A stretch of 64,000 nucleotides of DNA from Sporomusaceae bacterium (GTDB lineage Bacteria > Bacillota > Negativicutes > UBA1444). Below, piece after piece: positions 632-22,923 of this stretch (within the stretch, counting starts at the first letter, position 1; the number at the start of each line of letters is the position of its first letter). The stretch spans positions 1 to 64,000 of the forward strand of contig JAHDPL010000012.1 of assembly GCA_018434355.1 (NCBI GenBank), in the 5' to 3' direction. The notes below the pieces were generated by a model. It saw only the letters and a list, made by a program, of their open reading frames with translations. It was not told the DNA's origin and made no database searches. The translations under genes and the position numbers were made by a program.

Positions 632-2287
632 TCAATAACACAGAACAATATCCACAACAGGTTTTGACACTAAGATTGAAGTTCCAGTAATCTGCAATAT
701 TTCAATTCGATACGCTCCTAGAGGTAGTGTCCCGCCAGCCACTTCACATGCAAAACCAGCATCAATATAAATATTATTGCATAACGAAGTAGCGACATCT
801 TGGCGAATTTGACGATTTGCTCGAACATAAAATTCGTCTGAAGTATCAACCAATAAGAATTTAACATATATTTCAGTGGGAACCTGCTCGCTCTGCAAGT
901 CAACTGCCCACCCCAGAAAAAGAACCGGATCAGTATGTTTCAACTCAATTTGTAACATTTCTGGCACAAACGTACACCCATTGATTTGGTCTAAATTCCA
1001 TCCATGAGAAATTTCCTGACGATGCAGGGAGTTATACTGTTTTGGGGTTTTTTTAATAATTGAATGAGAAACTTGTTCATAAAAGCTCTTAAAGTTATAA
1101 GCTTCTTGTTCAATTGTCGTTGCAAAACATTTGTCAAGTTTTTCTTTGTATAAATTTAAACATGTCGGATCATCGCTGATTGACTGCAAAAGGTTTGTCA
1201 ATTCAGTCTGATTTCCGGCACTGAAAACAAAACCACCACCACTTTCGCTCAAAGCTTCCTGCATGGCTCCGATATTCGAACAAATTATAGGAACAGAGCA
1301 AGCCAGAGCTTCATGTAAAGCTAAAGAAAAGCTTTCATAGCAAAGAGATGGAACAACCAAAATGTCAATTTGTTTCAAAACAATTGAAAGATTAGTCTCG
1401 GAAAAAGTCCCCGCACATTCGATACGGTGGTCTTCGTGTGCTGACTTGTGTAAATTTCTCAAATATTGGGAATCAGGACCGTCTCCGTATAAAACAAGAG
1501 ATGCCTGATCTCCACAGACTTTTTTAAAACTATCAATTAAAAAATGCCCCCCCTTATGCGGCACCAGAGAACCAATAAACCCAAATACTATTCTGTCACC
1601 TTTTCCGTAACGTCTTTCATTCCGAACTAAAGAGCTATGCATCCCATGTGGTATGACCTTTACGTCAATTCCTAATTCAGCATGAAATATTTCAGCCACG
1701 AATTTTGACGGAGCAGTCAACGCAACTGCGTACGACAAAATCTTTTTCGCCATTGATAGTCTTGTTGAAATGTAGTCGGGTGCTAATTCTGGACAAAGCC
1801 TTTTGCATGTTTCACCGTTCTGAGGACCTTTGCATAAGGTACCTTGACTTGTTGTAAGGTTGATTTTGGGGCATAGCCAATAAAAATCAGTTAGCGTAAT
1901 GATATAGGGTATGTTTTCCTCGATCGCAACATGTACAAATTCCGTCATGCGCATTGCGTGACATATATGGAGTACATCCGGCTTGAGCTTGCCAAGAAGG
2001 TGACTGGCAACCGGGCGCATATCTGGGCAACTCAAACTGTGCCCCATCTCTTCCCTATACTCTGCAAACCGCCATGAGTGGACAGGCAAAGACTTATATA
2101 TATCGGAACGGAAACCTGTATTTGAGTTGTCAATTCGATCAAAATAGCTCATAGGTGCAAAGCCATATGTCACTATATTCACATTATGTCCATTTAGCTG
2201 ATTCATCGCAGCTAGGTTGAATACGGCTTTTTCAGTACCCGCTGAATACTCAGGATAAAACTGATGAACAAGATAACAAATTTTCAT
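632..2287 (-). CDS. Glycosyltransferase family 4 with extra C-terminal domain
   Basis: This is a cytoplasmic GT-B retaining glycosyltransferase, probably adding a sugar to a lipid-linked surface glycan. The N-terminus MKICYLVHQFYPEYSAGTEK is the usual GT4 donor-side start with the glycine-rich turn. The C-terminal Rossmann half has GFIGSLVPHKGGHFLIDSF and the nucleotide-sugar E-x7-E region VPSLCYESFSLALHEALACS. At 551 residues it is about 150 longer than a plain GT4. Residues about 430-551 form an extra mainly beta-predicted tail of unknown role. Its start overlaps the stop of the upstream GT2 gene by ATGA, so the two are translationally coupled. The gene is AT-rich compared with the right half of the window, suggesting transfer. 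Confidence 0.88.
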   Translation of the reverse strand: MKICYLVHQFYPEYSAGTEKAVFNLAAMNQLNGHNVNIVTYGFAPMSYFDRIDNSNTGFRSDIYKSLPVHSWRFAEYREEMGHSLSCPDMRPVASHLLGKLKPDVLHICHAMRMTEFVHVAIEENIPYIITLTDFYWLCPKINLTTSQGTLCKGPQNGETCKRLCPELAPDYISTRLSMAKKILSYAVALTAPSKFVAEIFHAELGIDVKVIPHGMHSSLVRNERRYGKGDRIVFGFIGSLVPHKGGHFLIDSFKKVCGDQASLVLYGDGPDSQYLRNLHKSAHEDHRIECAGTFSETNLSIVLKQIDILVVPSLCYESFSLALHEALACSVPIICSNIGAMQEALSESGGGFVFSAGNQTELTNLLQSISDDPTCLNLYKEKLDKCFATTIEQEAYNFKSFYEQVSHSIIKKTPKQYNSLHRQEISHGWNLDQINGCTFVPEMLQIELKHTDPVLFLGWAVDLQSEQVPTEIYVKFLLVDTSDEFYVRANRQIRQDVATSLCNNIYIDAGFACEVAGGTLPLGAYRIEILQITGTSILVSKPVVDIVLCY

Positions 2288-3528
2288 ACTCCACCGCCCA
2301 AAACAACATCTTCATATCTGTTTTCCATTTCACTTTTCTCATCTGCTGCGGCAGTCAAATAACACTGTGCAAGAAACATCCCACTCAATTGTGCGAAGGC
2401 CTTAAAAATACAAGAAATAAATTCTTGTTGCGCGTTTAGATCAACAAGATCATATGTTTGAAATAAATAATCAAATACCATATTCATAAAGGAGTTGAGC
2501 GTTGGAAGAAGTTTAGAAGTTTGAGAAGGGTCATTAATCATGTTGAGCTCAAATAGATTAGAAGTATTCTGTAGGAAGTTCCATAGTCTATCATCAATTA
2601 ATGAGTTTTTTCGTAGCGAATCGAAAGGGTATTGCTTCATACTACCAGATAAAAAGACATCACAATAACACGACTTTAAGTTCCCTACAGTTAGAACCTG
2701 CTTATTATTCTGCAATAGGTAGTCGGAAAAATCATTAATCCGGCAATACACAGAAAGAATATCCATAGAGATATTCATTAAGCCTAAACGTTCCAACTTA
2801 TAATCTGGAAAAATTTCGCGCATAAAGCGCGTCTCAACAAAAGAGCGTTTAAGAGAATAATAAGGCGGTCTATTATGCGAATGAATTACGCGTGTTCTGC
2901 CTAAAAACAGGATTTTTTTGCCATCTTGAATCAGTCTAATTCCGAGGTCAAGATCTTCTGCATAACTTGTGCGATATCGATATTGTCTAAATAATTCAGT
3001 AGTTATCATACAGGCCAAATCTGATAATTGCCCGTTTTTCCTGAGAGATATATTGTCGACAGTATCCGGCAATGAAAATATTCTATCACAATTTGAAACT
3101 CCTAAAAAACGATAATGATTCCAGCAAATACATCGATAATACAAGTCCGCATCTTCTCTTGGCGTCTCAGCGCAAGACACTGCAGCTATCCCCTCCTGTC
3201 CAAGGGCATCGAGCATTGTCTGTAGCCAATAAATATCCGGCATTAACACGTCCTGTGTAGTAAACAATAACACTTGTCCCCTTGAGTGATCCGCTCCAGT
3301 ATTACGCGCATATGCATGATTAAAATCTTCAGGCCGAATAGGAATCACTTTTGCTCCAGCCTTTAACGAATTATCTACCGTACTATCAGAGCTTGAAGAA
3401 TCCACAACAATTATCTCTATGGAAGCATTTACTTGCTGTTGCTTTATCATATATAGTAAATGACGAAATTGTTCCCCACCGTTCAGGGTGGGTATTATTA
3501 TGGAAACTAACGGACTTAAGCGTACCAT
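2284..3528 (-). CDS. Glycosyltransferase family 2
   Basis: The protein has the inverting GT-A fold of family GT2. Residues about 8-40 contain SIIIPTLNGGEQFRHLL followed by EIIVVDSSSSDST, where a DSSS takes the place of the common DDGS. A likely metal-binding acidic site follows near residue 95 (TTQDVLMPD, where DXD would be expected), and a later YAEDLDLGIRL gives the ED acid typical of rhamnosyltransferase-like members. AAGGAG lies 7 bases before the ATG. The gene is the first one left of the IS21 insertion and was presumably once cotranscribed with 7346-8194. The acceptor and donor sugars cannot be read from sequence; rhamnose is possible because the rfb genes are in the same operon. Confidence 0.88.
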   Translation of the reverse strand: MVRLSPLVSIIIPTLNGGEQFRHLLYMIKQQQVNASIEIIVVDSSSSDSTVDNSLKAGAKVIPIRPEDFNHAYARNTGADHSRGQVLLFTTQDVLMPDIYWLQTMLDALGQEGIAAVSCAETPREDADLYYRCICWNHYRFLGVSNCDRIFSLPDTVDNISLRKNGQLSDLACMITTELFRQYRYRTSYAEDLDLGIRLIQDGKKILFLGRTRVIHSHNRPPYYSLKRSFVETRFMREIFPDYKLERLGLMNISMDILSVYCRINDFSDYLLQNNKQVLTVGNLKSCYCDVFLSGSMKQYPFDSLRKNSLIDDRLWNFLQNTSNLFELNMINDPSQTSKLLPTLNSFMNMVFDYLFQTYDLVDLNAQQEFISCIFKAFAQLSGMFLAQCYLTAAADEKSEMENRYEDVVLGGGV

Positions 3529-3740
3529 AAAACGTCTCCTTAATAGTATATTCCGGGATAAACAGGGGTACCTGATTACTGCTCCGGTTGATTCCCGGTG
3601 AACAATCGGAGATACTAGTAGCAGTTGTCATTAGCCCATTAATGTTTCATCCCCTTGCTTTTTCATAGCCGGTATCCTACGGTGTTAAAACGCAGGCTAG
3701 GTTATCCCGATGCGCCTTCTTGCTAACATTACCTGCTATG
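3529..3740 (-). other. Noncoding leader left by the IS21 insertion, weak hairpin
   Basis: This 212-bp stretch separates the left IS21 end from the GT2 gene. I see no convincing gene in it. An 8-bp stem with one G-U pair (3583-3590 with 3603-3610, 12-base loop) lies 55 bp before the GT2 start, and a 5-bp CTAGCC/GGCTA-like pairing lies around 3665-3700. No run of T follows either stem, so a terminator is not supported. Whether this is an RNA leader or the remains of a displaced gene is undecided. Confidence 0.3.
3736..3740. repeat. Target-site duplication of IS21-family element, left copy
   Basis: CTATG directly precedes the TGTCA left tip, and the same five bases follow the right tip at 7330-7334. 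Family IS21 makes 4-8 bp duplications, so this defines the outer insertion exactly. Confidence 0.85.
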
Positions 3741-3793
3741 TGTCATCGCCAATGCTAAAATGACCCCATATGGCAAATGAAAATTGACCCCCT
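3741..3793 (+). repeat. IS21-family left terminal inverted repeat
   Basis: It begins TGTCATCGCC and contains two direct copies of an AAAA(T)TGACCCC motif, the multiple transposase-binding repeats usual at IS21 ends. It pairs with 7277-7329. Confidence 0.85.
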
Positions 3794-3855
3794 CCAACAA
3801 AGGAGGGAAAACGATGAACCAAGGGAAACCCTCCACCCATGAAATCCTTCATGGG
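3790..3855 (+). promoter_or_regulatory. Two hairpins that mask the istA ribosome-binding sites
   Basis: CCCTCC (3790-3795) pairs perfectly with GGAGGG (3802-3807) across a 6-base loop. The right arm is the ribosome site of the ATG at 3814. A second perfect 8-bp stem, CCCATGAA (3836-3843) with TTCATGGG (3848-3855), covers part of the GGGGGAG before the in-frame ATG at 3868. Both possible starts are thus masked in the RNA. In other insertion sequences such folds limit transposase made from outside transcripts. The structure is read directly; its function is inferred. Confidence 0.55.
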
Positions 3856-5103
3856 GGAGATGCCACGATGTTAACCCATGACCAATGGTCGGAAATCCGC
3901 TTCTGGTCCAAACTTGGGCAATCCATAAAGACCATCGCCCGCGACTTAGGCCTCAGTCGCAACACCGTTCGCAAAGCACTCCGCGAGCCGGAAAAACCAC
4001 AATATCAGAGGCAAAACAAACAGCGCGGCGTTCTGGAACCCTTTCTCCCGTTCCTGCAGCAGCGGGCTCCCGAAGTGTTCTTCAATGCCACTACGTTGTG
4101 CCGGGAGCTGAAAGCGCAAGGCTATCAGGGCGGCTACAGCACGGTCAAACTGGCAGTGAAACCGCTAAGGGAAACTTTCCGTTTGGTAGAAGCCGCTTCG
4201 GTCCGGTTTGAAACTCCACCAGGAAAGCAAGCGCAGGTGGATTGGGGAACGTCTTGGGTCAACATTGCAGGCAAGCGGACCCGCGTGAAGATTTTTGTCA
4301 TGGTGCTCGGATATTCGAGGGCCATCTACGTGGAGTTCACGCTGGATGAAACATTGCCCACATTGATTGCCTGCCACGAAAGGGCGATTCGCTACTTTGG
4401 TGGCATTACCCAGGAAGTGCTCTATGACAATCCCCGAACCATTGTGTTCCATCGCGGAACGGACGAGGCTTGCATCAATCCCCGGTTCCTCGACTTTTGC
4501 CGCTATTACGGCTACACACCCCGCCTCTGCCGTCCCTACAGGGCAAAGACCAAGGGAAAAGTCGAATCCGGCGTCAAATACGTAAAACGTTCTTTTCTGG
4601 CCGGTCGCAACGTAGTGTCGCTGGAGGATCTCAATACGCAAGTTGCGGATTGGATAAGAACCGTGGCGGATATGCGAATCCACGGGACTGTCCATGAGCA
4701 ACCGGCAGAGCGATTTTTGCGTGAAGAACTTTCCCCAGTGTCTTCCCAGCCTCCGTATGTACTGCAAACCTTCGCGGTGCGCAAAGTCGCCGCCGATTGC
4801 CTGATCTCCTTTGAAGCCAGTCGCTACTCCGTACCCTGGCAATACGTCCGGCAACTGGTGGATGTGCAAGTGGCGGAAGAACGGGTGAAGATTTACCATG
4901 AGGGAGTTTTGATCGCTGAACATCCCCTCGCAAACAAACCGTACCAGGTGGTGTTGCAACGAAGCCATTACGGCGGCTTGGGCAAGCTGCGGGATCATTC
5001 TCGTTCGCTACTGACCAAGAATTCGCCACAAAGCACCCCGGAGGTTGAGATCCGCAGCCTGGATGTGTATGCGCTGGTTGCTGGGAGTGAACTTCATGGA
5101 TAA
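3814..5103 (+). CDS. istA: IS21-family transposase IstA
   Basis: This is the DDE transposase of the outer element, acting on its TGTCA tips. An N-terminal helix-turn-helix (WSKLGQSIKTIARDLGLSRNTVRKAL) binds DNA. The catalytic triad is in QVDWG (about residue 150), VLYDNPRT (about 215) and KGKVESGVKYVKR (about 265), and the C-terminal Mu-type beta-barrel domain includes FEASRYSVPW. I chose ATG 3814 because GGAGGG precedes it by 6 bases; an upstream TTG at 3784 lacks a site, and ATG 3868 is an alternative. At 429 residues (about 411 from 3868) it has ordinary length and no visible damage. Its end overlaps istB by 8 bases. Confidence 0.93.
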   Translation: MNQGKPSTHEILHGGDATMLTHDQWSEIRFWSKLGQSIKTIARDLGLSRNTVRKALREPEKPQYQRQNKQRGVLEPFLPFLQQRAPEVFFNATTLCRELKAQGYQGGYSTVKLAVKPLRETFRLVEAASVRFETPPGKQAQVDWGTSWVNIAGKRTRVKIFVMVLGYSRAIYVEFTLDETLPTLIACHERAIRYFGGITQEVLYDNPRTIVFHRGTDEACINPRFLDFCRYYGYTPRLCRPYRAKTKGKVESGVKYVKRSFLAGRNVVSLEDLNTQVADWIRTVADMRIHGTVHEQPAERFLREELSPVSSQPPYVLQTFAVRKVAADCLISFEASRYSVPWQYVRQLVDVQVAEERVKIYHEGVLIAEHPLANKPYQVVLQRSHYGGLGKLRDHSRSLLTKNSPQSTPEVEIRSLDVYALVAGSELHG

Positions 5104-5524
5104 TCCCCAACTGCTGCGGATTCAGGAGAACCTGAAACACCTCAAGCTGACGCGCACGACGCAGTCCTTGGAAAACTTGCTGCAAGATGCCGGGAAACAA
5201 GAGATGAGTTACAGTGACTTCTTGGATCGACTGCTGGAAGAGGAAGTATCGCTCAAACAGGAGAAACAAACGGCGCTGAACACTTCTTTGGCGAAACTGC
5301 CTTATGTAAAAACTCTGGAGAGTTTTGATTTCAGTTTTCAACCTTCGATTGACGTCAAAGGAATCCGAGAGCTGGCTACCTGCCTGTTTATCGAGCGGTC
5401 AGAAAACGTGGTGTTCTTAGGACCACCCGGAACCGGCAAGACTCATCTGGCAGTGGCGCTTGGACTGAAGGCGATCCACAAACGGTACCGCACTTTGTTC
5501 ATCTCGGCAGCAGGCTTGATCGCC
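5096..5524 (+). pseudogene. istB: istB, 5' part (IS21 helper ATPase) cut by IS256
   Basis: The first 143 codons of istB start with MDNPQLLRIQENLKHLKL and keep the Walker A motif GPPGTGKTH near residue 110. The frame then enters the IS256-like element and stops at 5537-5539. The remaining codons resume in phase at 6887 after removal of the element and one copy of the 8-bp duplication, giving a 270-residue protein, normal for IstB. The Walker A and Walker B halves are therefore now on separate pieces, and the helper ATPase should be inactive. Confidence 0.92.
5517..5524. repeat. Target-site duplication of IS256-family element, left copy
   Basis: TGATCGCC precedes the inner element and is repeated at 6879-6886. 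Eight bases is the usual duplication length for IS256. Confidence 0.85.
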
Positions 5525-7270
<1,746 letters not shown>

Positions 7271-7276
7271 TTCCAT

Positions 7277-7329
7277 AGGGGGTCAGTTTTCGATTGCCAC
7301 AAAGGGTCATTTTTCAATTGCCGTTGACA
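7277..7329 (-). repeat. IS21-family right terminal inverted repeat
   Basis: Read on the minus strand it begins TGTCAACGGC and matches the left end at 42 of 53 positions. Its inner copies of the TGACCC motif start just after the istB stop. Confidence 0.85.
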
Positions 7330-7334
7330 CTATG
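7330..7334. repeat. Target-site duplication of IS21-family element, right copy
   Basis: CTATG follows the right tip; it is identical to 3736-3740. Confidence 0.85.
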
Positions 7335-7345
7335 TGTACAGTAGC

Positions 7346-8194
7346 TTAATAAGCCGGGTTATTGTTTTTAAAATACAATGCGCCATAATCATGTATGGTC
7401 TGGCCCAAAGCCTTAAAAACAGTACGTCGCTCCATACTATAATTAGCTTCTGTATCCCATTCATCAATCATCATATGTATCTGTTGGAATAAGTTCCACT
7501 CAAGCTCGAATTCACAGCACTTCTTGATATTATCCCGTGAATGAAAAAAGAACTTCGCTTTAATGTCGGGATAAATCGATAAAAATGTTGAAAACATCCG
7601 TTCAAAAACAAACGGGAACATAGGAGTTGGCCGATAATGATTGGTCCGACAGAAATATAAATTACGCTTTTCAGCCGAGCATTGCTTGGTTATAAATTCA
7701 AACAAGGGCAAAATAAATTTCATATATTCATTCCAAAACTTTTTATTGCCAACCCAATAATTACAATATAATAAACTTTGTGTAGTCATTCTCCCAATTT
7801 TTGATAAATTAATTTTGTATCCGACTGCGTCAAATAGCTCTTGCGTCAGCGAACAAATTCCAGGATGATATAGTTCGCCTTGTTCCCATACATTAAAATG
7901 GTAATAAGCCTTTTGCGGAAAAGGATTGACAAAATACACATCAAAACCCGGATCTTGAAGAATAAAATCTTTAAATGCACGACATGTAATATTAGTCTTT
8001 TGCTCAAATTTTGGTGATACTACCCCAACATACTCCGCATGTTCAAACTTACCAGTTTGAAATAGATCTAGAATAGCACCCATCTCATACAGAGCAGGAG
8101 TATTGTGAGTTCCATCATATATCAAAAAATTATTATCAATTTTTGCAAATTGTTCCGGTACATAACAATTTTGATATATTGCAATTGTTGCCAT
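7346..8194 (-). CDS. Unknown 282-residue protein of a glycan cluster
   Basis: I do not recognise a family. The protein has no signal peptide or membrane segment, is rich in aromatic residues and cysteine, and is probably cytoplasmic. Recurrent features include DVYFVNPFPQKAYYHFNVWEQGE, LYCNYWVGNKKFWNEYMKF and FPFVFERMFSTFL. This aromatic composition and the position between a LicC-like nucleotidyltransferase and glycosyltransferases suggest a sugar-handling or transferase role (inference only). It is strongly AT-rich like its upstream neighbours. Its stop is 11 bp from the right target duplication of the IS21 element, so it is now the last gene before the insertion. Confidence 0.75.
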   Translation of the reverse strand: MATIAIYQNCYVPEQFAKIDNNFLIYDGTHNTPALYEMGAILDLFQTGKFEHAEYVGVVSPKFEQKTNITCRAFKDFILQDPGFDVYFVNPFPQKAYYHFNVWEQGELYHPGICSLTQELFDAVGYKINLSKIGRMTTQSLLYCNYWVGNKKFWNEYMKFILPLFEFITKQCSAEKRNLYFCRTNHYRPTPMFPFVFERMFSTFLSIYPDIKAKFFFHSRDNIKKCCEFELEWNLFQQIHMMIDEWDTEANYSMERRTVFKALGQTIHDYGALYFKNNNPAY

Positions 8195-8210
8195 GTTTCG
8201 CTCCTAATTC

Positions 8211-8927
8211 TTAAGGCTTTACAGCAGCAAACATTTTCTCCGCCATGCGCAGATCGTCAAGATTGTCAATTTCAATCCAGCGTCCTTCAAAAGGGCAGGC
8301 AGCAAATGATACATAAGAAAATATATCATTGATTGCCACTTCGCTCCACAACTTGACTTCATGTCGCTGATGAATGTATTCTGCGCATTTAGCAAAAAAC
8401 TCCACACCAGCCTCGCAAGAAAATTTATAAACATCAATCGAGACTCCAAAAGCCTCCTTAGAAGAAATAGTCTTAGCTATCTTGATTAACTTTCCGTTTT
8501 TTTTCACCACTTTCATTGACTCTTCAATATAAATCCCTACGTCAGTAGCAATTGCATTTTTTTCCGTGCTCATGCACAACGCTTGAATAATTGACTGATC
8601 AAAAAAGACATCTGCATTCATCATAAGAAAATCATCATCATTTATCGCTTCACGACCTAACAACGCCGAATACATATTATTGGTGGTTGAATAATGTTCA
8701 CTGAAAATAAAATTTACACCTTGAAACATTGTGTTAATCTTTCGCTGCAATATATCCGCCTTATACCCTACAATAACAGTAATATCAAAAATTCCATTTT
8801 GATGAAGACATTCAATCTGATTAACTATAATTTCTTTGCCATTTACACAGACTAAAGCCTTGGGAAGAGTATCGGTAATAGGGGTCAATCTTGTTCCTTG
8901 GCCAGCCGCTAAAATCAGCGCTTTCAT
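8211..8927 (-). CDS. LicC-like sugar/choline-phosphate nucleotidyltransferase
   Basis: This is a cytoplasmic NTP-transferase that activates a phosphorylated small molecule as a CDP- or other NDP-derivative. The N-terminal signature MKALILAAGQGTRLTPITDTLPKAL is the nucleotide-binding loop. STTNNMYSALL, MNADVFFD and the late WIEIDNLDDL resemble the phosphocholine cytidylyltransferase LicC subgroup more than sugar thymidylyltransferases. The length of 238 residues fits. Its start overlaps the stop of the TagF-like gene (TAATG), so activated substrate and transferase are made together. The actual substrate (choline, glycerol, an aminoalkyl phosphate or a sugar phosphate) is unknown. Confidence 0.8.
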   Translation of the reverse strand: MKALILAAGQGTRLTPITDTLPKALVCVNGKEIIVNQIECLHQNGIFDITVIVGYKADILQRKINTMFQGVNFIFSEHYSTTNNMYSALLGREAINDDDFLMMNADVFFDQSIIQALCMSTEKNAIATDVGIYIEESMKVVKKNGKLIKIAKTISSKEAFGVSIDVYKFSCEAGVEFFAKCAEYIHQRHEVKLWSEVAINDIFSYVSFAACPFEGRWIEIDNLDDLRMAEKMFAAVKP

Positions 8928-10339
8928 TATTCGTTTGCCTCCGAAACAAGATTCTCCATATATTGAGCAACATAATGGACAAAGCGTCGGGCAGAATTAC
9001 CATCTAAGTACAGGTTATGTTCCTTGGCAGATTTATGCAATGCGGTAAAGTCATATATATTGATTTTCGAGATGCAAGCCAACAAATTTTCGATACTATT
9101 GACAACCGGAGCATTAATCGAGTAATGCTCCGCAATAATTAGCTCTCTGTCAGCAGTATAGGCTAAATGATCTGGTCGAAAGAAAATAATCGGCCTCTCT
9201 AAATGAAGAAAATCAAAAGCAATCGAAGAATAGTCCGTGATTAACATATCTGCTTGTTTCAGTAGTGGATAAAAATCCGTTTCTGGTTGAACTGTGGTAA
9301 TATTGTCGTCGTCAAAAAGTTCTGGATCAAGAAATGACATTTCAAAAGGATGCGGATTTAGCAGCAAATGATACCCCATTTTATCCAGTATATAAGCAAA
9401 TTTCTTAAGTTCAAGTTGTTTCATCCAATGATGGTTTCCCTGTCGCCAAGTAGGTGCATAACAAACAATTCTTTTGTTTTCCTTGATTTGTAAAATTTTC
9501 GCCAATGCAGTATCGTCAACATTGATTAAATCATAATTGTCTTCACTTCGCCAAAAAATATCGTTCCTCGCATAACCCGTTACTTCATATTTTTTAAATT
9601 GAAAGGATTGTGAAAACAACTGATAATGGGCCGGAGTCGCACCAAAAAAGACTTCTATATCGACTGCCATTTTGATAATAGTTGACAAGTGAAGATTCAC
9701 GGGATCTTCACGCGTTAATTCTTCAAGGCAAATATGTCTAATTGGTGTTCCGTGCCATACCTGCATTCTTTTTGCGCCCAATAGGCAAGCATGCAATATG
9801 CGAGATAGCGGAGGATGATCAACATAAAATCCATCATCGACAAGAACTGCTGCCCGCAATAGTTTTTTTACCATACGTTGGCTCTCATCCCACAACAATA
9901 CGGGCAATCCTTCACGTTTCAACTGCTCATATGTTTCTCGTCTCGTGGTTAAAAACCAAAATTCAAAACCCAGAGTTCGTTCATTATTAAATTTGGCAAA
10001 TTCCAAAAAACAGTATTTGAGATTTCCGGAAAAACTGCGAGGTGTATAGAAAATTAAACTTCGTTCCTTCCGAATTAATTGAGAAACCATAGAAATATTT
10101 TTCACTATCTCGTTTTCCAGGATTTTTAGTTCAAGCTTTAAAATCCTTTGTTCTATCTCATTCGCTTCAATTTTCTTCTTTGGCGCTTTTCTATTCTCAT
10201 TCCTGCCAAAATTTTTATAATGCTCATAGCCTGTCTCTATTTCTTTTTGCAATACAGCACGGGCAACATCAGGGTTTTCATTAAGATATGAGTCTTCGTC
10301 GAATACATTCAAATAGTCCGCTATTCTATCCATATTCAT
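8927..10339 (-). CDS. TagF/TagB-like CDP-glycerol glycerophosphotransferase
   Basis: This is a GT-B-like polyol-phosphate transferase that joins units through phosphodiesters, as in teichoic acid synthesis. Key features of the family are QVWHGTPIRHI, CYAPTWRQGNHHWMK, LLLNPHPFE and the acceptor/nucleotide site LITDYSSIAFDFLHLERPIIFF. The first 55 residues carry a separate motif (FDEDSYLNENPDVA then HYKNFGRNENR) that is also seen in front of glycosyltransferases in other polysaccharide clusters. No N-terminal membrane helix is seen, so it is probably peripheral. It lies next to a LicC-like enzyme. A teichoic-type enzyme inside an LPS-type locus is unusual and points to a phosphodiester-containing glycan. 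The substrate is not proven. Confidence 0.85.
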   Translation of the reverse strand: MNMDRIADYLNVFDEDSYLNENPDVARAVLQKEIETGYEHYKNFGRNENRKAPKKKIEANEIEQRILKLELKILENEIVKNISMVSQLIRKERSLIFYTPRSFSGNLKYCFLEFAKFNNERTLGFEFWFLTTRRETYEQLKREGLPVLLWDESQRMVKKLLRAAVLVDDGFYVDHPPLSRILHACLLGAKRMQVWHGTPIRHICLEELTREDPVNLHLSTIIKMAVDIEVFFGATPAHYQLFSQSFQFKKYEVTGYARNDIFWRSEDNYDLINVDDTALAKILQIKENKRIVCYAPTWRQGNHHWMKQLELKKFAYILDKMGYHLLLNPHPFEMSFLDPELFDDDNITTVQPETDFYPLLKQADMLITDYSSIAFDFLHLERPIIFFRPDHLAYTADRELIIAEHYSINAPVVNSIENLLACISKINIYDFTALHKSAKEHNLYLDGNSARRFVHYVAQYMENLVSEANE

Positions 10340-10381
10340 GACTGTACTCCTTGCGAAAAATTAATATTCAAAATACACAAC

Positions 10382-10927
10382 TTATATACACACTTTCAAT
10401 ACTGACGCATTTTTTATTTCATAATATGGATATTGTTCCAAAGGCACTTTATTAAATCTATGGAGTACACAATTGATCGGCCCACCGTGAGTCACTATTG
10501 CAATATTGTTATTTTTTGATTTAAATTTTGTTTGACACTCATCCAGCCATGAATTGACTCTTACGTATAAGTCATAGTGTGATTCTCCGTTGGGATAGGA
10601 CCGATACGGATCAAAACTGGACCAAAAATCCGGGTAGTGTTGATTGAACTTAATTATTGACCATTCTGCAACAGTTCCCGCATCGGTCTCCAATAGTTCA
10701 TTCCGAGGTATGATTTCCCGTTGCGGAAACAATAGCTCTGCAGTTTGAATTGCTCGTTTGGCCGTACTTGAAAATATCAAATCCATGTTAAGCTTGCAAA
10801 TTGTCAACGAATACAATGCCTTCACTTGCTGTATTCCTTTATCCGTCAACGGTGTGCCGACACTCCCGGTTACCAACCTGTCAACATTGGCTTGAGACTC
10901 ACCATGCCGAATGAAATAAAGTTGCAT
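10382..10927 (-). CDS. Histidine phosphatase family protein
   Basis: The protein belongs to the phosphoglycerate mutase/acid phosphatase superfamily. The phosphate-accepting histidine is in YFIRHGESQAN (residues 5-14), the second conserved arginine lies in FSSTAKRAIQTAELLF, an acid in ELLETDAG, and the second catalytic histidine in AIVTHGGPINCVLHRF near residue 150. Members in glycan clusters usually remove phosphate from a sugar or polyol phosphate intermediate. Here it lies between rfbA and the TagF-like gene, so it may supply a dephosphorylated building block. It is 6 bp downstream of rfbA. No specific substrate can be assigned. Confidence 0.87.
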   Translation of the reverse strand: MQLYFIRHGESQANVDRLVTGSVGTPLTDKGIQQVKALYSLTICKLNMDLIFSSTAKRAIQTAELLFPQREIIPRNELLETDAGTVAEWSIIKFNQHYPDFWSSFDPYRSYPNGESHYDLYVRVNSWLDECQTKFKSKNNNIAIVTHGGPINCVLHRFNKVPLEQYPYYEIKNASVLKVCI

Positions 10928-10933
10928 AACAAA

Positions 10934-11815
10934 TTACCCCGAAACGCGTTTGGCCAGACTGATTAAATATTGACCATACTCATTCTTGCTCATCGACATT
11001 CCGATTTCCATAATCCGCTCCACGTCAATATATCCCATGCGCCAAGCAATTTCCTCAGGACAGGCGATCATCATCCCTTGCCGCTCTTGTACGGTTTGGA
11101 TAAAGTTCGCAGCCTGTAAAAGTGAAGCATGAGTTCCGGTATCGAGCCATGCATGCCCTCGACCGAGTTTCTCCACTTTCAACTGTCCCATTTTGAGATA
11201 TTCTTTATTGACATCCGTGATTTCCAGTTCTCCCCGTGCGGAGGGTTTGATGCCATGGGCGATGTCCACCACTTGATTATCGTAATAATATAAGCCAGTT
11301 ACCGCATAATGCGATTTGGGGTTGACCGGCTTTTCTTCCAGGCTGAGAACTGCGCCTTTGCCATCAAACTCTGCAACCCCATAATGTTGCGGTTCTTTCA
11401 CCCAGTAGGAAAACACCGTCGCGCCAACTTCTTGGGAAGCGGCCCGCCGCAGTTGTTCATACAAGGCATGACCAAAGAAAATGTTATCGCCCAGAATTAA
11501 AGCGCAGGGGTCCTGTCCGACAAAATCCTTGCCAATGATAAAAGCCTGCGCCAATCCGCCGGGATTTGGCTGGACAGCATACTGAATTTCGATCCCCCAC
11601 TGATGACCGGTTCCCAACAAGCGTTGAAAAGCTTCTTGATCTTCCGGAGTCGTAATGATCAAAACCTGCCGAATACCTGAAAGCAAGAGAACACAAAGCG
11701 GGTAATAAATCATCGGTTTATCATAAACCGCCATCAATTGTTTGCTGACAGCCATAGTCAGGGGAAACAGTCTCGATCCGCTGCCGCCCGCCAAAATAAT
11801 GCCTTTAGTAATCAT
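10934..11815 (-). CDS. rfbA: Glucose-1-phosphate thymidylyltransferase
   Basis: RmlA makes dTDP-glucose from dTTP and glucose-1-phosphate, the first step of dTDP-L-rhamnose synthesis. Visible signatures are [52 protein letters not shown] and [14 protein letters not shown]. At 293 residues it is the standard long RmlA with the allosteric C-terminal part. GGAGGG precedes the ATG by 8 bases. The other three rhamnose genes lie 5 kb upstream in the same transcription direction, so the pathway is complete but rfbA is separated from rfbBCD by exporter and transferase genes. Confidence 0.97.
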
Positions 11816-11863
11816 TCATTGTTCCCTCCAGTGGTATTGTTTATGATAAACTTTTTCACTAGA

Positions 11864-13899: not shown

Positions 13900-13930
13900 T
13901 GTTCCCATGCCTCCTTTTTAATCTATCGCA

Positions 13931-15334: not shown

Positions 15335-16078
15335 TCAATCGATTTGGGTCCGATAATATTCATAAACAGCCTGCTTCTCTCCTATGCAGGCAACTTCGCC
15401 ATGATGAAGCAAGATTGCTCGATCGCATAAATCATCTGCAGATTTCAAAGAGTGCGTAACAAAAATGATTGTTGTTCCCCGTGCCTTGAACTCTTTCATT
15501 TTATTCATACATTGTTTTTGAAACGACTCATCGCCAACAGCCAACACTTCATCCACCAGTAAAATATCCGGTTCGATGCTCACCGCAACAGAAAAGCCCA
15601 GACGCATATACATCCCCGACGAGTAGGTTCGCATCGGTTGGTCAATAAATCTGCCCAACCCGGAAAATTCAATAATTTCATCCGCCTTTGCCCGGACTTC
15701 TTTACGCGTCAGTCCGAGCAACACACCGTTGACCAAAATGTTCTCCCTGCCTGTCAGGTCTGAATGAAATCCCGCTCCCAGTTCCAGAAGTGGCGCAATT
15801 CTGCCGTTGACCGCTACTCTGCCCAATGTAGGATGCAAAACGCCAGCAATGAGTCCGAGTGCCGTACTCTTGCCGGCTCCGTTTCGACCAATCAAGGCAA
15901 TGAATTCGCCATGTTTGACTTCGAAAGAAACGTTCTTCAATGCCTGGTAGCTGCTGCTTGATCGGGTCTGGATATGTTTGTGAAGATTCAGAATGAACCC
16001 CTTGATTCCTTGTTCGAACATTGCGGTCTGTTGGTATTCTTTTGTCACATTTTCAAAGCTTACAGCAATATTAGACAA
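15335..16078 (-). CDS. wzt: Polysaccharide ABC exporter ATPase (Wzt/TagH type)
   Basis: This is the nucleotide-binding subunit of an ABC-2 exporter that flips a finished lipid-linked polymer across the inner membrane. Walker A is GRNGAGKST (residues 64-72), the signature is YSSGMYMRLGFSVA, Walker B is DILLVDEVLAVGDESF, and the switch histidine is in IIFVTHS. At 247 residues it lacks the C-terminal carbohydrate-binding domain found in O8/O9-type Wzt, so chain-end recognition by that domain is not expected. It overlaps the permease gene by 8 bases. The gene symbol is by function rather than certain orthology. Confidence 0.93.
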   Translation of the reverse strand: MSNIAVSFENVTKEYQQTAMFEQGIKGFILNLHKHIQTRSSSSYQALKNVSFEVKHGEFIALIGRNGAGKSTALGLIAGVLHPTLGRVAVNGRIAPLLELGAGFHSDLTGRENILVNGVLLGLTRKEVRAKADEIIEFSGLGRFIDQPMRTYSSGMYMRLGFSVAVSIEPDILLVDEVLAVGDESFQKQCMNKMKEFKARGTTIIFVTHSLKSADDLCDRAILLHHGEVACIGEKQAVYEYYRTQID

Positions 16079-16835
16079 CTTCCGCGAACCTCTTTTCCAT
16101 CTTTCGATACCAACAATACCCCACTACACAAATCGCCAAATTATATAGAAAAGAAGAACTTAGCAACCCAAAATCCACTTGATTTTTCAAGAACAACTCG
16201 TGCCATAATTCAGTCACTTGCATCATAGGGTTAAGGTTCAATACCACAGCATACTGCTCCGGAAGGGATTTAACTGGATAAATCACGGGCGTTGCGTAGA
16301 AAAGCAAATTCATACAGACCTGCGTTAGATTTTCCATATCACGAAAAAACAAGTTAGATGTTCCTACAAATAATACCGTCCCCAACACAATCAGGCTCTG
16401 ATTCAGAAATAAAACAAGAATCCACGGGATATTGCTCCAATGAAAATCGACATCGTTTCCCCATAGAAACGCAAAAAGCACCGGCAATGCGAACAAAAAA
16501 TGAATAGCATTATTGCCAATCATGGCTAGTGCCAACATAATCCGGGGAAACGTCACTTTCTTAATCAAATTAGCATTCCCCAAAAAAACCCCAGGTGATT
16601 GATTGACGGAATTATTAAAATACTGCCAAGGAAACATGCCTGACAATAAAAAAACTAGGTAGCTTTCCATATCGATCCGCATGGCATGACTAAACACAAC
16701 ATAAAACGTCAACGCAAAGGCAAGAGGACTTGCCACGGACCACAAATAACCGAAGACAGTACTTTTATAACGAATCTTGAGTTCTTTACTTATCAATACA
16801 ATGAGTAATTCCAGATAGTAATGATATTTGCTCAC
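16071..16835 (-). CDS. wzm: Polysaccharide ABC exporter permease (Wzm/TagG type)
   Basis: This is the ABC-2 membrane subunit partnering the ATPase gene that follows. It starts with a short cytoplasmic amphipathic region (KELKIRYKSTVFGYLWSVASPLAF), followed by about six membrane segments. Characteristic parts are FLLSGMFPWQYFNNSV, NLIKKVTFPRIMLALA and TPVIYPVKSLPEQYAVVLNLNPM. It acts with the WbaP-type initiator to export a polymer on undecaprenyl pyrophosphate. The coding sequence is AT-richer than the rfb genes beside it. The start is GTG. Confidence 0.93.
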   Translation of the reverse strand: MSKYHYYLELLIVLISKELKIRYKSTVFGYLWSVASPLAFALTFYVVFSHAMRIDMESYLVFLLSGMFPWQYFNNSVNQSPGVFLGNANLIKKVTFPRIMLALAMIGNNAIHFLFALPVLFAFLWGNDVDFHWSNIPWILVLFLNQSLIVLGTVLFVGTSNLFFRDMENLTQVCMNLLFYATPVIYPVKSLPEQYAVVLNLNPMMQVTELWHELFLKNQVDFGLLSSSFLYNLAICVVGYCWYRKMEKRFAEVV

Positions 16836-16854
16836 GTTATGATCTCAACCACTT

Positions 16855-17694
16855 TCAATTTTTGTAGGGTTGCAGATAGTCACTCAGCGCAACGTCCCAA
16901 ACCCGCGGGCCCCACCCCAGCGCCAACTGCAACAGTCGCGTGTCGAGCGGCGAATACGCCGGGCGCGGCGCTGGCCGCACAAACTGTTCGGTCGTCACCG
17001 GCGTCAATTTCACTTTCATATTGCCAGTCAGTTCAAATATCTTTTTTGCGAAGCCATACCAGCTGCTGACTCCACTATTCACGACATTATACGTGCCATA
17101 ACGGTTTGTCTCCAAGATGCGCAGCACCGCCTCCGCCAGATCTACCGTACTCGTCGGACAACCATGCTGGTCATTAACAACTTGCAGTTCCTCACGCTCC
17201 TGCCCCAGCTTCAGCATCGTCCGCACGAAGTTCGGACCGTCACCATAAAGCCAGGCTGTGCGAAGAGTAAACAACCTGTCGGTGGCCTGACGCGCCAGCA
17301 TCTCGCCGGCATATTTCGACTTGCCGTAGACACTGAGCGGGTTGGGTGAGTCGAATTCCGTGTATGCTCGCCCTAATGTGCCATCGAACACGTAGTCAGT
17401 GCTGATATATACCATTTTGGCGCCACAGACCCGGCAGGCCATAGCGATGTTCTGCGTGCCGATGGCGTTGACCTTGTAGGCCAAGTCGACCTTTTCCTCC
17501 GCTGCATCCACCTGGGTCCAGGCCGCACCATGAATCACGGCGTCGGGTCGGTATTGACCGATCATCGTTGCCACTGCCGCTTCATCTGTAATATCCAGTT
17601 CCTGAACATCGGTAGCCAGATATTCTGTTCCCTGCAGCCGTTTCTGCAGTTCCCTGCCCAACTGTCCGTTGGCCCCGGTCAAAAAAATCCTCAT
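16855..17694 (-). CDS. rfbD: dTDP-4-dehydrorhamnose reductase
   Basis: RmlD reduces dTDP-4-keto-L-rhamnose to dTDP-L-rhamnose with NAD(P)H. It is an extended SDR with the cofactor loop LTGANGQLGREL at residues 5-16, the STDYVFDG strand, and the catalytic YGKSKYAGE (Tyr-x3-Lys). LRTAWLYGDGPNFVRTMLKL and YNVVNSGVSSWYGFA are further family marks. The length of 279 residues is standard. The start overlaps the rfbC stop by ATGA. It completes the rhamnose pathway with rfbA, rfbB and rfbC in this window. Confidence 0.96.
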   Translation of the reverse strand: MRIFLTGANGQLGRELQKRLQGTEYLATDVQELDITDEAAVATMIGQYRPDAVIHGAAWTQVDAAEEKVDLAYKVNAIGTQNIAMACRVCGAKMVYISTDYVFDGTLGRAYTEFDSPNPLSVYGKSKYAGEMLARQATDRLFTLRTAWLYGDGPNFVRTMLKLGQEREELQVVNDQHGCPTSTVDLAEAVLRILETNRYGTYNVVNSGVSSWYGFAKKIFELTGNMKVKLTPVTTEQFVRPAPRPAYSPLDTRLLQLALGWGPRVWDVALSDYLQPYKN

Positions 17695-18242
17695 CTTCGT
17701 GGCAACCTCCCAATCGGTACATCTTTCAGCAGCGGCTGATCTCGATCCTTTTCCGATAATAGCGGCTCATTGATAGGCCAGACGATCCCGATATCCGAAT
17801 CGTCCCAACGGATACCACCGTCGCATTCTGGATGATAAAGATCCGTGCACTTGTAACTGAACAAGGCTGTTTCCGACAACACGCAAAATCCATGCGCGAA
17901 TCCCGGTGGAATATAAAATTGCCGTCTGTTTTCCGCTGACAGTGTCACTGCCGTCCACTTACCGAATTGTGGGGAACTAGGTCGTATATCCACGGCCACG
18001 TCCCAGACCTCACCCGACAGAACATAAACCAGCTTACCTTGGGCGTGCGGGTTCTGGTAATGCAGCCCTCGCAGCACTCCGCGGGAAGAATAAGACAAGT
18101 TGTCCTGCACAAAATCGAGTTTAATGCCGCAATCGGCATAACGTCTTTGATTATATGTTTCCATGAAAAAACCCCTTGAATCACCAAAAACATCCGGCTC
18201 CAGAATCAATACTCCATCAAGGGCTGTCTCAATTGCTTTCAT
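17691..18242 (-). CDS. rfbC: dTDP-4-dehydrorhamnose 3,5-epimerase
   Basis: RmlC epimerises C3 and C5 of dTDP-4-keto-6-deoxyglucose. The cupin protein shows [22 protein letters not shown], the catalytic-site segment [22 protein letters not shown], and [33 protein letters not shown] and YSPLSESGG-like [18 protein letters not shown]. At 183 residues it is normal. Both ends overlap neighbouring rfb genes by ATGA, so rfbB, rfbC and rfbD form one tightly coupled block. Confidence 0.97.
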
Positions 18243-19297
18243 GACCCAGTTCCCAACCTTTCCTGCCGATATTTACCAGAAGTCACCCGTTCGCACCAGT
18301 CCGGGTTATCCAGATACCATTCCACCGTCTTTCGGATGCCGGTATCAAATGTCTCCTGCGGAGACCAGCCGAGCTCACGGCCAATCTTGCCGGCATCGAT
18401 CGCATAGCGTCGGTCATGGCCCGGCCGGTCAGTAACATATGCAATCTGATCTACATACGGCTTTCCATCCGGCCTGGGCCGCAGTTCATCGAGCAATTTG
18501 CAAATCTTCTCTACGATCCGGATGTTTGGCATTTCGTTATGTCCGCCAATATTATAGGTTTCTCCACACTTCCCAGTTGCCAGCACCGTCAGAATCGCCC
18601 GGCAGTGGTCTTCTACGTATAGCCAGTCCCGTACCTGCATCCCGTCGCCATACACTGGCAACGCTTTGCCCGCCAGCGCGTTCAGGATCATCAGCGGAAT
18701 CAGTTTTTCGGGAAATTGATAGGGCCCATAATTATTGGAGCAATTGGTAGTCAGCACCGGTATTCCGTAGGTGTGATGATAGGCCCGCACCAGATGATCG
18801 GAAGATGCCTTGGATGCCGAATACGGCGAATTCGGTGCATACGGAGTTTCTTCGGTGAACAAGCCTGTCGAACCGAGTGATCCATAGACTTCGTCAGTCG
18901 AAACATGCAAAAAACGGAACGCAACCTTGCGGTCGGCGGGGAGTTCTTTCCAGTACTTCCGCGCCGCTTCCAGCAAGTTAAACGTCCCGATGATATTCGT
19001 CTGAATAAATGCCGCCGGGCCGTCAATCGAGCGGTCTACATGTGACTCCGCCGCAAAGTGGACGACTGCATCCGGCTGATACTCCAACATGATTTTTTCT
19101 ACGGCGACTGCATCGCAAATATCTGCTTTGCTAAAATGATAGTTCGAATTTGACTCGACATCTCTCAGACTATCCAGATTCCCTGCATAGGTCAGGTTAT
19201 CAAGATTCAGCACCTGCATTTCGCGCTGCAATAACGCCTGCCGGATAAAATTGCCGCCGATAAATCCCGCCCCGCCCGTAACCAAAATTTTTATCAT
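18239..19297 (-). CDS. rfbB: dTDP-glucose 4,6-dehydratase
   Basis: RmlB converts dTDP-glucose to dTDP-4-keto-6-deoxyglucose with bound NAD+. The start is taken at ATG 19297, giving [20 protein letters not shown] with the Rossmann loop at the very N-terminus; an upstream in-frame codon at 19366 would read into the preceding gene. [27 protein letters not shown] and the catalytic [15 protein letters not shown] are visible, as is the late [14 protein letters not shown]. Length is 352 residues. It begins 2 bp after the stop of the WbaP-like gene. Confidence 0.97.
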
Positions 19298-19299
19298 AT

Positions 19300-20661
19300 T
19301 TAATACGCTCCCTTTCCACCTACTACATATTTTACTGTCTTCAGCAGAATCACCAGGTCCAGCCACACCGACCAGTTGCGCACATACCAGGAGTCGATTC
19401 GTACCCGGTCTGCATACGAGATATCATTGCGTCCGCTCACTTGCCACAGGCCGGTGATGCCCGGCTTTACCATGTAGTAATCATCGATAAAACGGCCATA
19501 TTTTTCCACCTCGGCTTGCACAATCGGCCGCGGCCCCACCAAACTCATTTCACCCTTCAGCACGTTCATAAACTGCGGCAGTTCATCCAGGCTGGTTTTT
19601 CGCAAAATCCGTCCAATACGCGTAATCCGCGGATCTTCTTTCAGTTTATAGTTTTGTTCCCATTCCTGCAAACACTCCGGGTGCGCCTCCAGGAAGTGTT
19701 GCAGTTTCGCCTGCGCGTCCGGCACCATCGTGCGAAACTTGTAGCAGGGAAATTCCTTGCCGCCGCGTCCCACCCTTCGGTGGGAAAACACGATCGGACC
19801 CGGTGAATCGATGTAAATCAACAAACCCAGCACGCAGTAAAGGGGAAAAAAGATCATCAGGCCGATTAGCGCCCCGACAAAATCCAGCCCCCACTTGTAG
19901 GCCCGGTTCGTCAAACTCGCCATATTGTTGCGTGTACGCATCAGGACTAATTTTTGGTCGAAAAAGGTCTCGACATCCAGATTGCCTACCGGTAGTCCGA
20001 ACAGATCCGGCACGATCATCACATCACGGGTAATATGTTGGATCCGGCAAAACAAATCGACCAAGCGCGCTTTGGCCATCCCCGGCGCCGCCAAAACCAC
20101 CGTACCGATCTGGTGCCGCTCAATCACTTGCTCTACTTCGTCAAACCGTCCCAGTACCGGAAATTGCTTGGTGAGCTTTCGCTGCTCCGGAAAATCTTCC
20201 AGCAATCCGATGATACGGTACCCAATCGTCGGGTCTTGCTGAAATACCTGCGCCAGCAATTCGGCCGTCTTTCCTGCTCCAACCACCAGTACCGGCACTT
20301 CCCACAAGCCCAGACGAAACAAAATTCTTTTTGCTGCATACCGCACGGAAAATAGCAAAAAGAATGAAAATACCGCGGACAATAGAAGCAGGGACCGAGA
20401 AAACTCGCGTTCACCGCTGAAAAAAAAGTTTAGGGCAGACAATACCAGCGTACCAAAAAAACAGACTCGCGCCAGTCCCTGGATCCGTTTCCAGAGAAAC
20501 CGGTGCGGTTCGTACATCCGCTCCGACACCATAAAGCATAAGTATACCGAAGGAATCACCAGATACAACATCTCACTGCGCCAGACAACCGGTTCCTGAA
20601 ACCAGCCCCAAGTGACAAAAAATTGGTTGCGTATCCAAGTGGATAGCAACAACGCTGCCAC
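19300..20661 (-). CDS. WbaP-type undecaprenyl-phosphate hexose-1-phosphate transferase
   Basis: This membrane enzyme starts glycan assembly by moving hexose-1-phosphate from UDP-sugar to undecaprenyl phosphate. The N-half has several hydrophobic segments and a NAD-like fold ([15 protein letters not shown]). The C-terminal catalytic domain shows [50 protein letters not shown] and [13 protein letters not shown]. The listed start is the first GTG (20661). The open frame continues upstream for about 24 codons with sensible hydrophobic sequence to an ATC (20733) that has GGGAGG 9 bases before it, so the true protein is probably longer. Galactose or glucose is the likely sugar. Confidence 0.92.
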
Positions 20662-20794
20662 CAGACAAACGTAATCTAGCCCAACAAAGACAACTCGACT
20701 GATTCGACGGCTCAGAAATCGTAGTATGCGGATGACGTAGCGCCTCCCTCAATCCGTTGGAAAGCAAACCCTGAAAAAACCTCTGTTAGAATAA

Positions 20795-20869
20795 TACTTT
20801 TATTATAGTTAAAGTAATGGCGTTGTCATTATCCTGTCTGGATAATCTAAACTCCCAGTTAAGACAACG
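20795..20869 (-). promoter_or_regulatory. Promoter before the WbaP-rfb genes, within nested inverted repeats
   Basis: On the minus strand ATGACA (20824-20829) and a perfect TATAAT (20802-20807) are 16 bases apart, a strong sigma-A type promoter. The -35 box lies in the left arm of a nested inverted repeat: CGTTGTC (20821-20827) with GACAACG (20863-20869), and inside it ATTATCC (20828-20834) with GGATAAT (20840-20846). This looks like a repressor site or a structured end of the fcl transcript. It would give wbaP, rfbBCD and the exporter their own transcription. Confidence 0.6.
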
Positions 20870-20885
20870 GCTGCGCCACCAGGGT

Positions 20886-21815
20886 TTAATAATTGTCCAC
20901 AAACCATGCATAAGTTTTTGCCAGCCCCTGCCCAAGATCAGTTTTTGCTTGCCAGCCCAATGCGTTGATTTTTCTGACGTCCAGCAGTTTTTGCGGTGTC
21001 CCGTCAGGTTTGGTCCGGTCGTAAACCAGTTCCCCCTTGTATCCAACCGTGTCCGCCAGCATCGCAGCCAGTTCGGCGATTGTCAGATCCTGTCCCCTGC
21101 CGATATTGACAATACCAGCTTCATTGTAATGTTGCATCAAAAAAACGCAAGCTTCTGCCAAGTCGTCGACAAACAGGAACTCTCGCCTTGGAGCGCCGCT
21201 GCCCCATATCGTCACTGATGCTTGATAATTTACTTTTGCTTCATGAAACTTGCGCAGCAGTGCAGGCAAAACGTGAGAGTTGTCCAGGTCAAAATTATCG
21301 CCGGGACCGTATAGATTGGTCGGCATGACGGAGATGAAGTTGCAGCCGTATTGCCGTCGATAGGCATTGCACAGCGAGATGCCTGCTAGTTTTGCCATCG
21401 CATAGGGTTCGTTGGTCGGCTCCAGCGGCCCGGTCATCAGGCATTCTTCCCGGATCGGTTGTGGGCACAGTCGCGGGTATATGCAGGAGCTGCCCAGGAA
21501 CAAAAGCTTTTTTACTCCGCTGCGGTGCGCCGCCTGAATCACGTTGGTTTCCATCATCAGGTTTTGGTAGATGAAATCGGCAGGATAGCTATTATTGGCC
21601 AGTATGCCGCCGACTTTGGCCGCCGCCAGAAACACATATTCGGGCTGCTCCAGCTGGAAAAAAGCGTCGACTGCCTGTTGGCAGGTCAGATCGAGTTCGG
21701 CATGGTTCCGTTCCAACAACCGTTCATATCCGTGCGAACGCAGCTGGCGTGAAATCGCTGATCCTACCAGCCCGCGGTGGCCGGCCACGAATATTTTTGC
21801 CGTTTTCTCCATCAT
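20886..21815 (-). CDS. fcl: GDP-L-fucose synthase
   Basis: This SDR epimerase-reductase makes GDP-L-fucose from GDP-4-keto-6-deoxymannose with NADPH. The cofactor loop is [55 protein letters not shown] and the catalytic [20 protein letters not shown] are typical, as is [14 protein letters not shown]. Length is 309 residues. It overlaps gmd by ATGA, the normal pairing for GDP-fucose synthesis. A GDP-mannose source is not encoded in this window. Confidence 0.96.
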
Positions 21816-22903: not shown

Positions 22904-22923
22904 GGCATTTTCCTCCATCTTTA

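Follow-up and report, generated by a model that had tools for sequence, protein, structure and literature searches.

The wchX-gtp1-gtp2-gtp3 genes of pneumococcus 23F encode a putative glycerol phosphotransferase, a glycerol-2-phosphate dehydrogenase, a nucleotidyl transferase, and a phosphotransferase (PMC3493582). Hafnia alvei PCM1220, which has a glycerol-phosphate O-antigen, carries tagD and a gene for a putative transferase, whcT (PMC4869667), and the capsule systems of A. pleuropneumoniae and C. jejuni HS:1 are supplied with their donor by a glycerol-3-phosphate cytidylyltransferase (PMC5974469). Here, we compare these systems with a three-gene cassette from a Sporomusaceae bacterium (Negativicutes), which encodes a TagF-like polyol-phosphate transferase, a LicC-like nucleotidyltransferase (NTase), and a histidine phosphatase family protein (HisP). 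The cassette lies in a 64,000-nt stretch (the window; contig JAHDPL010000012.1) of a 3.9-Mb genome. Based on gene content, motifs, fold prediction, and gene neighborhoods, the reading that we favor, with real reservations, is that a horizontally acquired donor and transferase cassette adds polyol-phosphate, most likely glycerol-phosphate, to an O-polysaccharide that probably contains rhamnose.

The TagF-like protein (470 amino acids, aa; 8927..10339, minus strand) has two parts: (i) a helical N-terminus (residues ~1-90); and (ii) a PF04464 GT-B domain (E-value 1.9e-44; 152.5 bits against a cut-off of 22.1). Its gene is the one place in the genome at which PF04464 was found. The motifs are intact (WHGTP 195-199, RND 258-260, APTWR 295-299, NPHP 328-331, and TDYSS 368-372), and across 12 aligned PF04464-type proteins W195, H196, R258, P296, T297, R299, H330, D369, Y370, and S371 are invariant, while G197 of the WHG motif is nearly so. 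H196 and H330 are the equivalents of the catalytic residues H444 and H584 of TagF, and both are present. The WHG motif occurs in TagF and TagF-like glycerol-phosphate polymerases, whereas other GT-B enzymes, hexose-phosphate transferases among them, have QHG or QYA (PMC11666461); a hexose-phosphate transferase was thus rejected for this protein, as its motif is WHG rather than QHG. An AlphaFold2 (AF2) model of the protein, built from 11 sequences (mean pLDDT 75.3), was aligned with 999 PDB chains, and the predicted fold matches the nine best PDB entries at Z 26.9-31.2, with the next at Z 20.1. TagF ranks first (Z 31.2), followed by the capsule multienzymes 8a0c/8a0m (Hib Bcs3) and 8qoy (Cps3D), and then by TarL. 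None of the NCBIfam equivalog cut-offs for TarF, TarL, and TarB is reached (77.5 of 550, 50.8 of 1000, and 35.7 of 500 bits, respectively). By family, motifs, and predicted fold, the product of 8927-10339 is a polyol-phosphate transferase. Within its N-terminus, residues about 14-55 form a 'FDEDSYLNENPDV...GRNENR'-like stretch; short repeats resembling it precede glycosyltransferases and RTX proteins.

The adjacent gene (8211..8927, minus strand) encodes the LicC-like NTase (PF00483, 1.2e-15), a probable cytidine diphosphate (CDP)-polyol (CDP-glycerol) synthase that would act as gtp2 does in pneumococcus. LicC (1jyk) is its closest PDB match (3e-18), and the core residues R13, K23, D106, E219, and D221 are kept in 23 aligned rows, LicC included. 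Trp136 and Tyr190 of LicC presumably form an aromatic choline pocket, with Trp136 contacting the choline. At the Trp136 position, the window NTase and all eight of its close orthologs have a serine; the Tyr190 position is a tryptophan, which is still aromatic. The NTase is LicC-like, yet probably not specific for phosphocholine. A 23-row NTase tree places the window protein and those of four close orthologous loci (L045-L048) in a five-row clade with a support of 99/98; outside this clade it is mostly unresolved, with long branches for LicC and several other rows. As substrates within the NTase family vary, and include phosphocholine, phosphoglutamine, phosphosugars, phosphoglycerate, and inositol-phosphate (PMC12275187), gene neighborhoods were used to narrow the substrate. 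On these grounds, the best reading of the predicted product is a CDP-polyol, most likely CDP-glycerol.

Eight close orthologs of the NTase (L045-L048, L051-L053, and L088; 45-57% identity) were compared in this way. PF04464 lies near the NTase gene in seven of the eight, a HAD phosphatase gene directly follows it in six, and a glycerol-1-phosphate-dehydrogenase-like (G1PDH-like) gene directly precedes it in five. The HAD and dehydrogenase families were named on the L045 proteins, of which the former is above its cut-off for HAD-IIA and the latter scores 265 bits on NF002022 (cut-off 413). L045, L046, and L053 share the order TagF-dehydrogenase-NTase-HAD, which matches the four-gene order of pneumococcal 23F, and in L047 two genes stand between TagF and the dehydrogenase. 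The HAD gene is absent from L088 and the dehydrogenase gene from L051 and L052. L048 is the exception that lacks PF04464; it has an adjacent LicD, and no PF04464 match was found in its genome (G113). Because the pairing recurs, in these seven orthologs and on a Solidesulfovibrio plasmid, and because the transferase carries WHG, the TagF-like protein and the NTase very probably are a donor-maker and donor-user pair that would yield a phosphodiester on the glycan of the operon.

Beyond these orthologs, nine distant NTase loci (L089-L097; 26-36% identity among the BLAST matches listed) include four with a G1PDH-like gene and four with a TagF-like gene. At another more distant locus, L049 (7715-12052), TagF and NTase genes stand beside an FGGY kinase gene (xylulokinase-like, below cut-off) and a class II aldolase gene, a pairing that suggests another CDP-polyol. 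Among 150 sampled genomes of the same class, with the present one counted in, the NTase is found at E<=1e-15 at 14 places in 12 genomes, and at 7 of the 14 PF04464 also matches within 5 kb; at an identity of at least 54% it is found in 3 other genomes. In a phylum sample, the NTase profile matched 31 of 398 genomes at E<=1e-20, and of the 10 whose surroundings were read, L088 alone was close. The search for orthologs in the class of genome G462 added none (1 of 37 genomes matched, G462 itself), and a contig scan with one protein as the query gave 3 relatives.

The cytidylyltransferase that serves the capsules of A. pleuropneumoniae and C. jejuni HS:1 is presumably of the TagD type, and Gtp2 of pneumococcus was reportedly shown by Wang et al. 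in 2010 to make CDP-2-glycerol. A search of the genome for TagD (TIGR01518) gave nothing above the cut-off, the sole weak match (45456-45740) scoring 47.6 against 165.4 bits. The PF01467 gene at this place (45327-45797) was rejected as TagD, as it is far below the cut-off and adjoins a PfkB kinase gene, as in ADP-heptose synthesis. Among the 150 genomes, TagD is above its cut-off in 3 and PF04464 in 27, which, together with this locus, suggests that a LicC-like enzyme can stand in for TagD as the source of CDP-polyol donors. The NTase would draw on the general sn-glycerol-3-phosphate pool or on another source. A HAD relative with 40% identity is encoded elsewhere in the genome. The passages of PMC8262930 considered here have no bearing on a LicC-like route.

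Like pneumococcal 23F, the window combines an NTase with a predicted glycerol-phosphate transferase; unlike it, the window has no gtp1- or gtp3-like neighbors, and its host bears lipopolysaccharide (LPS). The PF04464 GT-B fold and WHG are shared with the Gram-negative capsule polymerases Cps3D, Cps7D, and Bcs3, but these are multidomain proteins, whereas the window protein has one transferase domain and is paired with a LicC-like NTase. As in H. alvei PCM1220, glycerol-phosphate is predicted to be placed on an O-polysaccharide by genes of the O-antigen cluster; on the other hand, the donor in that strain comes from TagD, of which the window genome has none above cut-off. LicC itself is of the same family and has the same core (R, K, D, E, D), but differs from the window NTase at Trp136 and has LicD, not TagF, as its partner. 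Plasmid pDCAR1 of Solidesulfovibrio carbinolicus (L104:6348-8245), also from a Gram-negative host, resembles the window in that TagF is followed by the NTase (the two genes share four bases) with no dehydrogenase or HAD gene adjoining, at identities to the window of 27% (TagF) and ~30% (NTase). No glycosyltransferase gene is listed in the 17.4 kb viewed of pDCAR1, for which the gene table is incomplete. On S. magneticus pDMC1 (L105), a 207-bp NTP-transferase gene comes after TagF and is followed by a Tn3 transposase gene.

The three cassette open reading frames (ORFs; 8211-8927, 8927-10339, and 10382-10927) are all intact. They are read from the minus strand and sit near the distal end of a series of O-antigen genes. 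The TagF-like stop codon and the NTase start share one base (TAATG), and HisP, which is upstream of TagF and downstream of rmlA, is separated from them by 42 and 6 nt, respectively. Strand and spacing suggest a single operon. The adjacency of the three genes within an O-antigen operon, as claimed in the preliminary description, is borne out by the intact ORFs, the Pfam matches, and this spacing. The setting is an LPS-type locus, because rhamnose genes, Wzm/Wzt, an O-antigen ligase-family gene, LptF/G, and LpxC are nearby; the LptF/LptG genes are in the window and the LpxC gene is immediately outside it, and together with the ligase-family gene they agree with the diderm Firmicute host that had been proposed, a bacterium with an outer membrane in a group whose members mostly have one membrane.

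Upstream of the cassette, all on the minus strand unless noted, are genes for RmlA, the glucose-1-phosphate thymidylyltransferase (10934..11815; TIGR01207, 482 bits, cut-off 360.65); a PaaK/CapK-like adenylate-forming enzyme (13931-15334, directly downstream of Wzt, strand not noted; below NCBIfam cut-offs and with no Pfam match); a Wzt-type ABC exporter ATPase (247 aa; 15335..16078; PF00005); a Wzm-type ABC exporter permease (16071..16835; PF01061; 73.8 bits on the galactan Wzm model, cut-off 380); rmlD-rmlC-rmlB (16855..19366; Pfam matches); a Bac_transf-type initiating sugar-phosphate transferase (19300..20661; PF02397, 1.1e-66); a guanosine diphosphate (GDP)-mannose dehydratase and an epimerase-family protein (20886..22918; PF16363, 1.9e-160, and PF01370, 1.8e-68), which would provide a GDP-6-deoxysugar route; and an O-antigen ligase/Wzy_C family protein (26495..27679; PF04932, 4.5e-25). 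Family-9 glycosyltransferase genes are also part of the setting. A likeness of the ATPase to TagH, put forward earlier, holds weakly and is non-specific, as two teichoic-exporter models give Wzt 233 and 196 bits and a galactan Wzt model gives it 199, none of them reaching its cut-off; on the NCBIfam TagH equivalog it reaches 196.4 of 320 bits.

The base composition changes at about 10930, where the guanine-plus-cytosine (GC) content drops from mostly 0.48-0.56 in rmlA and the genes upstream to 0.34-0.40 in the distal genes of the operon. By region, GC is 0.366 at 7346-10927, 0.389 at 632-3528, 0.493 at 10934-24303, and 0.525 beyond, and none of 495 sliding windows (3,582 bases, after 10930) is as GC-low as the cassette. 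Because of this low GC and its patchy distribution, the cassette was probably acquired horizontally as a block. Two glycosyltransferase genes with cassette-like composition (GT4 and GT2, GC 0.40 and 0.38; 632..3528, minus strand) are separated from the cassette by an IS21-family insertion sequence (IS; 3740..7330), directly downstream of the gene for a 282-aa protein. Its ends are 54-nt inverted repeats (3740-3793 and 7277-7330) that are 80% complementary. A Mutator-family transposase gene interrupts istB, whose two ORFs cover IstB model positions 2-132 and 157-237, and the PF00872 gene (5637-6827) between them marks a nested insertion.

HisP (181 aa; 10382..10927, minus strand; PF00300, 2.6e-37) has the motifs RHGE (7-10) and THGG (146-149), and its top NCBIfam model is the alpha-ribazole phosphatase CobC (TIGR03162), whose cut-off it misses (93.8 against 162.9 bits). 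A search of plasmids with HisP matched 69 records, of which the 15 listed are CobC, unnamed histidine phosphatases, or unannotated. As a conserved member of the cassette HisP was rejected, its own genome being the sole match at E<=1e-20 among the 150. The joint phosphodiester role first proposed for all three proteins is therefore kept for the TagF-like and NTase pair, given its recurrence and WHG, and not for HisP. The 282-aa protein (7346..8194, minus strand), encoded directly downstream of the NTase and with no assigned family, was likewise rejected as a conserved member (own genome the sole match at E<=1e-10 among the 150). It has no Pfam match up to an E-value of 1, no NCBIfam match up to 0.01, and no match in plasmids, and its single-sequence AF2 model is uninformative (pLDDT 35.7).

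From these parts, a three-step pathway can be proposed. The NTase would use cytidine triphosphate (CTP) and a glycerol-phosphate, with the sn-1-, sn-3-, and 2-phosphates of glycerol as candidate isomers, to form a CDP-glycerol-type donor in the place of TagD. According to its family, motifs, and fold, the TagF-like protein could then move the polyol-phosphate onto a sugar of the lipid-linked chain in the cytoplasm. Since the protein has a single transferase domain and lacks the additional domains found in capsule polymerases, the transferred group would form a cap or a side-group of the chain and not a long teichoic backbone. Going by the content of the operon, Wzm/Wzt would export the chain, and the ligase-family protein would join it to lipid A-core. 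We give very little weight to a further variant in which HisP, as a phosphoglycerate-mutase-like enzyme, replaces the dehydrogenase and HAD protein and converts sn-glycerol-3-phosphate to glycerol-2-phosphate or another unusual phosphate isomer; were it true, a diderm Firmicute would make a glycerol-2-phosphate O-antigen by an undescribed route.

Several observations weigh against a glycerol-phosphate cassette of this kind. Neither a gtp1-like dehydrogenase nor a gtp3-like HAD gene was found beside the window NTase, and the dehydrogenase matches in the genome are partial (26 and 33%). The proposed likeness to the pneumococcal gtp genes is one of gene order, and the TagF-family proteins that accompany the orthologous NTases share only 16-22% identity with the window TagF-like protein. 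The sister row of the NTase, L048 (support 89/80), carries LicD in place of TagF; four of the nine distant loci (L091, L093, L094, and L097) have neither a G1PDH-like nor a TagF-like gene by BLAST; and related nucleotidyltransferases accept varied substrates (PMC12275187). Low GC also extends upstream of the cassette, to Wzm (0.39), a 357-aa gene (0.42), and Wzt (0.46).

Some of these points bear on what is transferred. The NTase could activate another small phosphate, such as 2- or 3-phosphoglycerate, as CpgD does, or a C4-C6 polyol phosphate, so that TagF would form a phosphodiester that is not glycerol-phosphate. We consider this unlikely, though it accords with the diversity of the family, in which CpgD prefers 2-phosphoglycerate (PMC12275187), with the missing dehydrogenase and HAD neighbors, and with the kinase and aldolase of L049, by which other polyols may serve in the family; the closest NTase orthologs, however, adjoin the G1PDH-like gene, which is below its cut-off and of unsure membership. 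It is very improbable that the NTase is a true LicC, making CDP-choline or a similar donor for a phosphocholine decoration independent of TagF. LicC is the top PDB match, several plasmid relatives at ~30% identity are annotated 'phosphocholine cytidylyltransferase family', and LicD adjoins the NTase in L048. Yet the prevalence of TagF-family partners in the close orthologs speaks against this substrate, as does the absence of LicD among the genes scanned (632-35097 outside the IS). The serine at Trp136 may do so too, although the Tyr190 position is still aromatic, and the LicD family is not choline-only, CpsC of A. pleuropneumoniae being a member (PMC11666461).

Other explanations concern the polymer and the state of the genes. 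TagF could alternate with the glycosyltransferases of the operon, the product being a poly(glycosyl polyol phosphate), i.e., a teichoic-type chain on LPS. TagF-like enzymes do make such backbones in Gram-negative group 2 capsules (PMC5974469), and export here falls to a Wzm/Wzt pair whose ATPase is short; nevertheless, we judge this distinctly unlikely, since the capsule polymerases are fusions and the window protein has one transferase domain, a conventional glycan is suggested by the genes for rhamnose and GDP-sugars, and the low-GC cassette looks like an addition to an older operon. That the cassette is decaying or silent, with IS21 severing the distal glycosyltransferases and the low-GC block as a remnant, appears more improbable still. 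The IS21 element with its Mutator-type insertion (3740-7330) and the lack of the orthologs' dehydrogenase and HAD genes beside the window NTase would fit such decay, but the three cassette ORFs cover nearly full family domains with intact motifs and tight spacing, and the IS is downstream of them. We retain, at the strength given at the outset, the addition of polyol-phosphate as a side-group or cap.

The novelty that had been claimed for a mixed teichoic and LPS polymer is weak, as glycerol-phosphate O-antigens (PMC4869667) and TagF-like capsule polymerases of Gram-negatives (PMC5974469; PMC11666461) are published and 27 of 150 class genomes have PF04464 above cut-off. Such chemistry has already been described for capsules and O-antigens of Gram-negatives, and the host is little studied. 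A polyol-phosphate O-antigen may be undescribed for this group; no title describing one was recognised among those listed, in a literature with few subscription journals covered. In 2016, a conserved LPS cluster of diderm Firmicutes was described as having no obvious O-antigen pathway (PMC5007114), and in 2017 an LPS ladder was observed in Veillonella, the structure of which was reported as unknown (PMC5491611). The O-antigens of diderm Firmicutes are thus scarcely characterised, and the locus described here predicts, in a testable manner, that such LPS would carry a phosphodiester.

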